A stretch of 12,579 bases of DNA, taken from a bacterium. GTDB lineage: Bacteria > Coprothermobacterota > Coprothermobacteria > Coprothermobacterales > JAADFF01. Below the pieces are notes generated by a model. It saw only the letters and a list, made by a program, of their open reading frames with translations. It did no database searches and was not told where the DNA came from. Shown here one piece after another: positions 1 through 3,313 of this stretch (the first letter of the stretch is position 1; each line of letters begins with the position of its first letter). The stretch is from NCBI GenBank assembly GCA_027063755.1, contig JAMORD010000018.1, positions 1 through 12,579 of the forward strand. The letters run 5' to 3'. Made by a program: the position numbers and the translations under genes.

Positions 1-3023
<3,023 letters not shown>

Positions 3024-3028
3024 CTATG

Positions 3029-3036
3029 CCCCCTTT
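3029..3036 (-). promoter_or_regulatory. ligA ribosome binding site with a G5 tract
   Basis: AAAGGGGG lies 8 nt before the ligA ATG. Its GGGGG core differs from the AGGAGG-type sites of most genes in the window. It is complementary to the CCCCC motifs of the adjacent C-rich RNA, so it could be masked in cis or in trans. Confidence 0.7.
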
Positions 3037-3059
3037 CACACCTCTACTTTATTCTACCC

Positions 3060-3095
3060 AAAAAGAGGAGAAGGACCCCTGGGGGTACGGGGTCC
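3060..3095 (-). terminator. Rho-independent terminator or attenuator upstream of ligA
   Basis: On the minus strand GGACCCC (3095-3089) pairs perfectly with GGGGTCC (3079-3073) around a 9-nt loop that contains CCCCC. A pyrimidine-rich tract ending in TTTTT (3064-3060) follows. It ends the candidate small RNA and probably also any read-through from the tRNA-Ser gene. It lies 40 nt upstream of the ligA start, so it could equally act as a ligA attenuator. Confidence 0.65.
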
Positions 3096-3156
3096 ATTAG
3101 GGGGATGCATTTTCTTCCGTCTGTGGAGAAGCGGGGGACACTTCTCCTCAGGGGGT
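3060..3156 (-). ncRNA. Candidate C-rich small RNA or structured ligA leader
   Basis: A transcript of about 97 nt is bounded by a good promoter and a U-run. Predicted structure from inspection: a 5' tail with CCCCC (3155-3151); hairpin 1 with GGAGAAG (3147-3141) pairing CTTCTCC (3131-3125) around a 9-nt loop holding CCCCC (3137-3133); an unpaired linker with CCCCC (3104-3100); and terminator hairpin 2 with CCCCC (3085-3081) in its loop. All four C5 motifs are therefore exposed. GAGGAGAAG (3149-3141) is also a perfect 9-nt complement of CTTCTCCTC (3073-3065) just before the U-run, so an alternative closed fold exists. C-rich unpaired motifs that bind SD sequences are known from Gram-positive small RNAs such as the RsaE/RoxS group. 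No sequence family is recognised here, and the function is inferred. It does not show the conserved SRP RNA apical domain. Confidence 0.5.
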
Positions 3157-3162
3157 AAGGAT

Positions 3163-3191
3163 ATACTACCAAGTCTTAAAACTGTCGTCAA
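3163..3191 (-). promoter_or_regulatory. Sigma-70-type promoter of the C-rich RNA (and possibly ligA)
   Basis: On the minus strand TTGACG (3191-3186) is separated by exactly 17 nt from TAGTAT (3168-3163). Each box differs from consensus at one or two positions. The expected start site is near A3156, immediately before the CCCCC tail. The promoter lies between the tRNA-Ser 3' end and the RNA, which argues that the RNA is an independent unit rather than tRNA trailer. Confidence 0.65.
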
Positions 3192-3220: not shown

Positions 3221-3313
3221 TGGCGGAGGGGGTGGGATTTGAACCCACGGGACGGCCTGGAACCGTCCAAGGGATTTCAAGTCCCCCGCATTCGTCCGCT
3301 CTGCCACCCCTCC
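3221..3313 (-). tRNA. tRNA-Ser(UGA)
   Basis: A complete 93-nt class II tRNA. The acceptor GGAGGGG (3313-3307) pairs with CCCCTCC, followed by discriminator G, typical of serine, and an encoded CCA (3223-3221). The D arm is GCAGAGCGGACGAATGC. The anticodon loop CTTGAAA has anticodon TGA and reads UCA-type serine codons. A long variable arm with a 6-bp stem (GGACGG/CCGTCC) is the class II mark, and the T arm is GTGGG-TTCAAAT-CCCAC. The two bases before the mature 5' end (GC) would extend the acceptor pairing but belong to the precursor. It is transcribed divergently from alr. Confidence 0.97.

Follow-up and report, generated by a model that had tools for sequence, protein, structure and literature searches.

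Several small RNAs (sRNAs) that use cytosine-rich segments to pair with mRNAs have been described. The sX13 sRNA of Xanthomonas is a 115-nt, Hfq-independent RNA with stable stems, whose C-rich loops pair with G-rich motifs near translation starts; such motifs sit at the ribosome-binding position of 5% of the genes there, sX13 acts on virulence, pilus and hfq mRNAs, and the flanking nucleotides were reported not to be conserved among its targets (PMC3771888). RoxS/RsaE, FsrA and CsfG of the Firmicutes use C-rich single-stranded regions for pairing with mRNAs in regulons of redox and central metabolism or iron, and a G-rich sponge RNA, RosA, titrates RoxS (PMC8216469). Known pyr operon attenuators use a terminator/antiterminator switch between the promoter and pyrB, with PyrR as the regulator in Bacillus and UTP-coupled leader-peptide translation as the signal for pyrBI in Escherichia coli. 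In pT181-type plasmids, a cis-encoded antisense RNA pairs with a leader and makes a terminator form.

Here we analyzed a 12,579-nt contig (JAMORD010000018.1 of assembly GCA_027063755.1, hereafter the window), which is part of a 1.5-Mb draft genome (G000) of the Coprothermobacterota. A preliminary description had proposed that a C-rich RNA of about 97 nt lies between tRNA-Ser and ligA, with its own promoter, a GC hairpin plus U-run at its end, and four exposed CCCCC motifs in the 5' tail, the loop of hairpin 1, the linker and the terminator loop. It had further suggested that the RNA recalls Gram-positive sRNAs pairing with Shine-Dalgarno (SD) sequences and matches no known family. The features of the locus are as follows (RNA nt n corresponds to window position 3157-n).

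3221..3313, minus strand: tRNA-Ser(UGA), the upstream neighbour, not part of the RNA
3163..3191, minus strand: promoter TTGACG-17-TAGTAT with TG before the -10
3060..3156, minus strand: C-rich small RNA gene, about 97 nt
3143..3156, minus strand: seed 1, 5' tail ACCCCCUGAGGAGA (nt 1-14), with 14 bp to adk and 9 bp to acpP
3121..3151, minus strand: hairpin 1 (nt 6-36), loop GUCCCCC
3129..3140, minus strand: seed 2, loop side UGUCCCCCGCUU (nt 17-28), matching purF, a purine-type permease and the pyrB leader
3089..3117, minus strand: seed 3, linker GAAGAAAAUGCAUCCCCCUAAUGGACCCC (nt 40-68), matching the pyrB leader (20 bp), a PHO4 permease (18 bp), pyrF, purH, purE, a PhoU-like gene, DegV and fumarase
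3073..3095, minus strand: terminator-like hairpin GGACCCC-GUACCCCCA-GGGGUCC (nt 62-84)
3060..3064, minus strand: terminal U5
729..3020, minus strand: ligA, the downstream neighbour, probably a separate unit

The observation itself was confirmed, as the sequence, the promoter hexamers and the four CCCCC tracts are all as described. The 97-nt RNA folds better than all of 200 dinucleotide shuffles (-33.7 kcal/mol, z -3.87), and the mean unpaired probabilities of the four tracts are 0.72, 0.80, 0.89 and 0.99, so that stable hairpins with unpaired C-rich tracts are predicted, as in the sX13 and RoxS/RsaE class. It was the only stretch with four C5 tracts within 97 nt in 567 kb of the sister genome. 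However, exposure of all four tracts is not in itself a significant signal, since 14% of block-preserving shuffles expose theirs as much. The terminator is not textbook either: the GGACCCC/GGGGUCC stem is followed by UUCUCCUC before the U5, and the predicted fold extends the stem by pairing GGA.GAA with UUC UCC, which brings the stem next to UCUUUUU and leaves the linker C-tract in a one-sided loop. In contrast to the Gram-positive comparison made earlier, the organism is not Gram-positive; the sister species (G001, public record JAADFF01) is recorded as Dictyoglomota bacterium isolate L_MetaBat.91, and the order-mates look like Coprothermobacter.

Conservation upstream of ligA in related genomes had been named in advance as a test of the element, and it was passed. 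Over 11.3 kb the two sister genomes, the only two of the genus examined, are 82.7% identical, whereas 3028-3172 is 97.9% identical, with runs of 79 and 39 identical bases; only parts of proS match this. The RNA differs at one of 97 positions (98-99% identity), an unpaired one, and the promoter is likewise conserved, while the neighbouring tRNA-Ser gene is visibly more diverged between the two species. The proposed covariation of the stems, and co-evolution of seeds and target sites, could not be examined with two near-identical copies. No expression data exist, and the promoter and terminator are predictions only. The element is absent upstream of ligA in four order-mates, and BLAST and a covariance model built on the RNA found it only in G000 and G001 of nine genomes of the phylum, with one copy per genome and a next best hit at E 2.9. 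A BLAST hit in a genome of another phylum was treated as chance. A search for relatives of ligA among genome contigs gave only the sister MAG and one distant gene. No Rfam 15 family matched at the gathering score; only the tRNA was found in the window, and hits at E up to 10 were at chance level.

The first BLAST search showed that prominent non-self matches in both genomes are antisense to the 5' regions of genes. One C-rich match first appeared to be a paralogue but is the antisense strand of the pyrB leader, the adjoining gene, initially considered as argF, being pyrB. The exact complement of the linker seed, GGGGGATGC, occurs 13 times per genome against 3-4 for the reversed control. Leaving out the locus itself, most of these sites lie at translation starts or the pyrB leader and are conserved: pyrF, purH, purE (one C-to-U change that keeps a G-U pair), a PHO4-family permease and the PhoU-like gene before it, fumarase alpha, DegV and the pyrB leader. 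The complement of the hairpin-1 loop seed, AAGCGGGGG, lies in the 5' regions of purF, a purine-type (xanthine/uracil-family) permease and, again, the pyrB leader in both species. The complement of the 5'-tail seed lies at adk (adenylate kinase) as a 14-bp perfect match in both species, and at acpP. Uridine kinase (udk) keeps the purF-like GGGGGAATGC at its SD in both species, amid otherwise diverged upstream sequence. The terminator-loop seed is at control level and shows no target signal.

We next asked whether these matches exceed chance, using sampled stretches rather than whole genomes. The match at the PHO4-permease start is 18 bp without mismatch in both species, and none of 1000 C-tract-preserving shuffles of the RNA gave 18 or more anywhere in 567 kb of G001. 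In 536 sampled start regions of G001, at least 10 nt of perfect complement occurs in 9 against 2.9 expected (p 0.027), and at least 11 nt in 4 against 0.67 (p 0.015), whereas 8- and 9-nt matches are not enriched over flank shuffles. Location-blind 12-nt matches are only mildly enriched (6 against 3.35, p 0.14), but four of the six lie in 5' regions on the sense strand. GGGGG or longer serves as the SD-position motif in 74 of the 536 predicted genes (about 14%), so short C/G matches are cheap; moreover, part of the sampled sequence was chosen because it held hits, and several sites share an operon (purF/H/E; pyrB/F) and are not independent. By transcription unit, the nucleotide theme rests on pyr, pur, the permease, adk and, more weakly, udk, while acpP, DegV and fumarase do not fit it. 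Duplex energies of the linker rank the PHO4 permease, purF, fumarase, purH and pyrF as the top five of the 536.

The pyr operon is pyrB-pyrC-pyrK-pyrD-pyrF. On the G000 stretch that carries its start (L042), a TATAAT element is followed by a leader (from about L042:932) that begins CUUGGGGGUUCAUUAGGGGGAUGC, then AAGCGGGGG, then the terminator GGGAGCC-UUUAC-GGCUCCC-U10, and pyrB starts at 1095. The RNA is complementary to GGGGUUCAUUAGGGGGAUGC over 20 bp, with one G-U pair in G000 and two in G001, where the substitution keeps pairing, and to AAGCGGGGG by its loop as a second 9-bp site. The two sites are in collinear antiparallel order with similar spacing, the other point substitutions between the species fall between them, and the predicted dimer gain is about -24 kcal/mol. 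The partition function gives the terminator a probability of 0.16 (G000) or 0.01 (G001) in the free leader and 1.0 in both when the RNA's site is blocked, indicating by folding alone a mutually exclusive terminator and antiterminator switched at this site in both species. Shuffling the upstream leader gives 0.16 or less in only 1.5% of 200 cases, so an antiterminator seems built in, although blocking almost any stretch of the first 56 nt of the leader also frees the terminator in silico. No Rfam family, including the PyrR element, was found in the pyrB-leader contigs of either species; the presence of PyrR protein was not examined. A possible 49-codon reading frame (40 in the sister) also runs through the leader and terminator (L042:932-1100), as in E. 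coli pyrL.

Taken together, we believe, with a probability of about 0.6, that the locus encodes an independently transcribed, Hfq-independent, trans-acting sRNA whose C-tracts, each made specific by its flanks, pair with G-rich 5' regions of nucleotide and phosphate genes. At most targets (pyrF, purF, purH, purE, the purine-type permease, adk, the PHO4-family permease and its PhoU-like partner) the duplex would cover the SD sequence or start codon and block translation. At the pyr operon, the RNA would pair with the 5' end of the pyrB leader, disrupt the antiterminator and let the intrinsic terminator form. The net effect would be coordinated repression of purine and pyrimidine synthesis and phosphate uptake. 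Our computations demonstrate the conservation, the complementarity in both species, the clustering of sites in nucleotide genes and the two-state folding of the pyrB leader, whereas transcription, pairing in the cell and the direction of regulation are inferred; neither a discrete transcript nor regulation of any target was measured, and the signal has not been identified. Independence from Hfq is assumed because no match to PF17209 was found in either genome, though both are incomplete MAGs. The earlier interpretation of an SD-pairing C-rich sRNA without a known family is largely upheld and sharpened, but everything rests on sequence and it is only partly supported, since transcription is unproven, the fourth tract has no target signal, the lineage is not Gram-positive, and at the pyrB leader the predicted action is termination control rather than SD blocking.

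Other explanations were considered. The RNA might be a general anti-SD RNA whose tracts bind many GGGGG SD sequences with little specificity, the nucleotide theme being partly a sampling effect. The frequency of such SDs, the lack of enrichment of 8-9-nt matches and the non-nucleotide hits agree with this, but matches of 10 nt or more are enriched and extend into the flanks, those of 14, 18 and 20 bp are conserved in both species, and three different seeds point to nucleotide genes; we consider it unlikely. Of similar standing, and not exclusive of our main reading, is the possibility that the pyrB leader is itself the regulator, its terminated G-rich RNA acting as a sponge for the C-rich RNA as RosA does for RoxS, with pyr attenuation following another signal such as UTP-coupled translation of the leader ORF. 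The leader has three G-tracts, two of them matching the RNA, a strong terminator and the open frame; however, the binding site lies within the predicted antiterminator, so pairing should itself affect termination, and the first ATG of the frame directly abuts the G-run, a poor SD distance.

A cis-acting leader or attenuator of ligA, or a trailer of the tRNA-Ser transcript, without trans targets, appears improbable. The element lies 40 nt before the ligA start and directly after the tRNA, and conservation continues to the ligA SD, but it has its own conserved promoter, is missing upstream of ligA in the four order-mates, and would leave the long trans matches unexplained. In addition, a -10-like TAGAAT (3051-3056) just after the terminator, inside a fully conserved block, is probably ligA's own promoter. 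Least likely is that the complementarity reflects shared ancestry of an inverted copy or a shared protein-binding motif. The antisense of the pyrB leader does resemble the RNA over two segments with equal spacing, yet matches are found at unrelated genes with different seeds, and no promoter is needed on the C strand of the pyr leader, while the G strand has TATAAT and a terminator.

In its proposed action the RNA works like sX13, but no Rfam or sequence relation was found, its flanks give 10-20-bp matches, its predicted targets are nucleotide and phosphate genes, and one site is a leader terminator. It likewise resembles RoxS/RsaE, FsrA and CsfG in the use of C-rich regions, without an Rfam match and in another lineage. 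Compared with the pyr attenuators of Bacillus and E. coli, the switch strand is complementary to a separate small RNA, although a leader ORF would be E. coli-like; compared with pT181-type attenuation, the RNA would be trans-encoded and chromosomal. Nucleotide synthesis in bacteria is usually described as controlled by repressor proteins, PyrR, riboswitches or nucleotide-sensitive transcription. We found no paper, in a search that reached few subscription journals, describing a single sRNA that pairs with both the pur and the pyr operon or a trans-encoded RNA that drives an intrinsic terminator in a pyr leader. If true, the regulon and the trans attenuation would be new, adding an RNA-only way of coordinating purine, pyrimidine and phosphate supply in a little-studied lineage where no Hfq was found, with concrete pairs (the RNA with the pyrB leader, adk or the PHO4 permease) that can be tested in vitro without culturing the organism. 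A bolder possibility, which we hold only tentatively, is that this one RNA is the master feedback brake on purine and pyrimidine synthesis and phosphate uptake in the lineage, attenuating the pyr operon in trans and blocking the SDs of pur, kinase and transporter genes. Its level might follow CTP, as it is predicted to start ACCCCC, but this link is pure speculation.

An unusual anti-SD was also considered; the 16S gene is not assembled in either MAG, but SDs such as AGGAGGTGA indicate a normal one. A small ORF inside the RNA (GTG TCC CCC ... TAA) appeared weak, because the SD lies 2 nt from the GTG and the only substitution between the species would be non-synonymous. A conserved inverted repeat, GGGGGGAC-loop-GTCCCCCC, which includes AAGCGGGGG, was found in both genomes (C93 in G000 and C54 in G001), and on the other strand it looks like a terminator followed by GCTTTTT.
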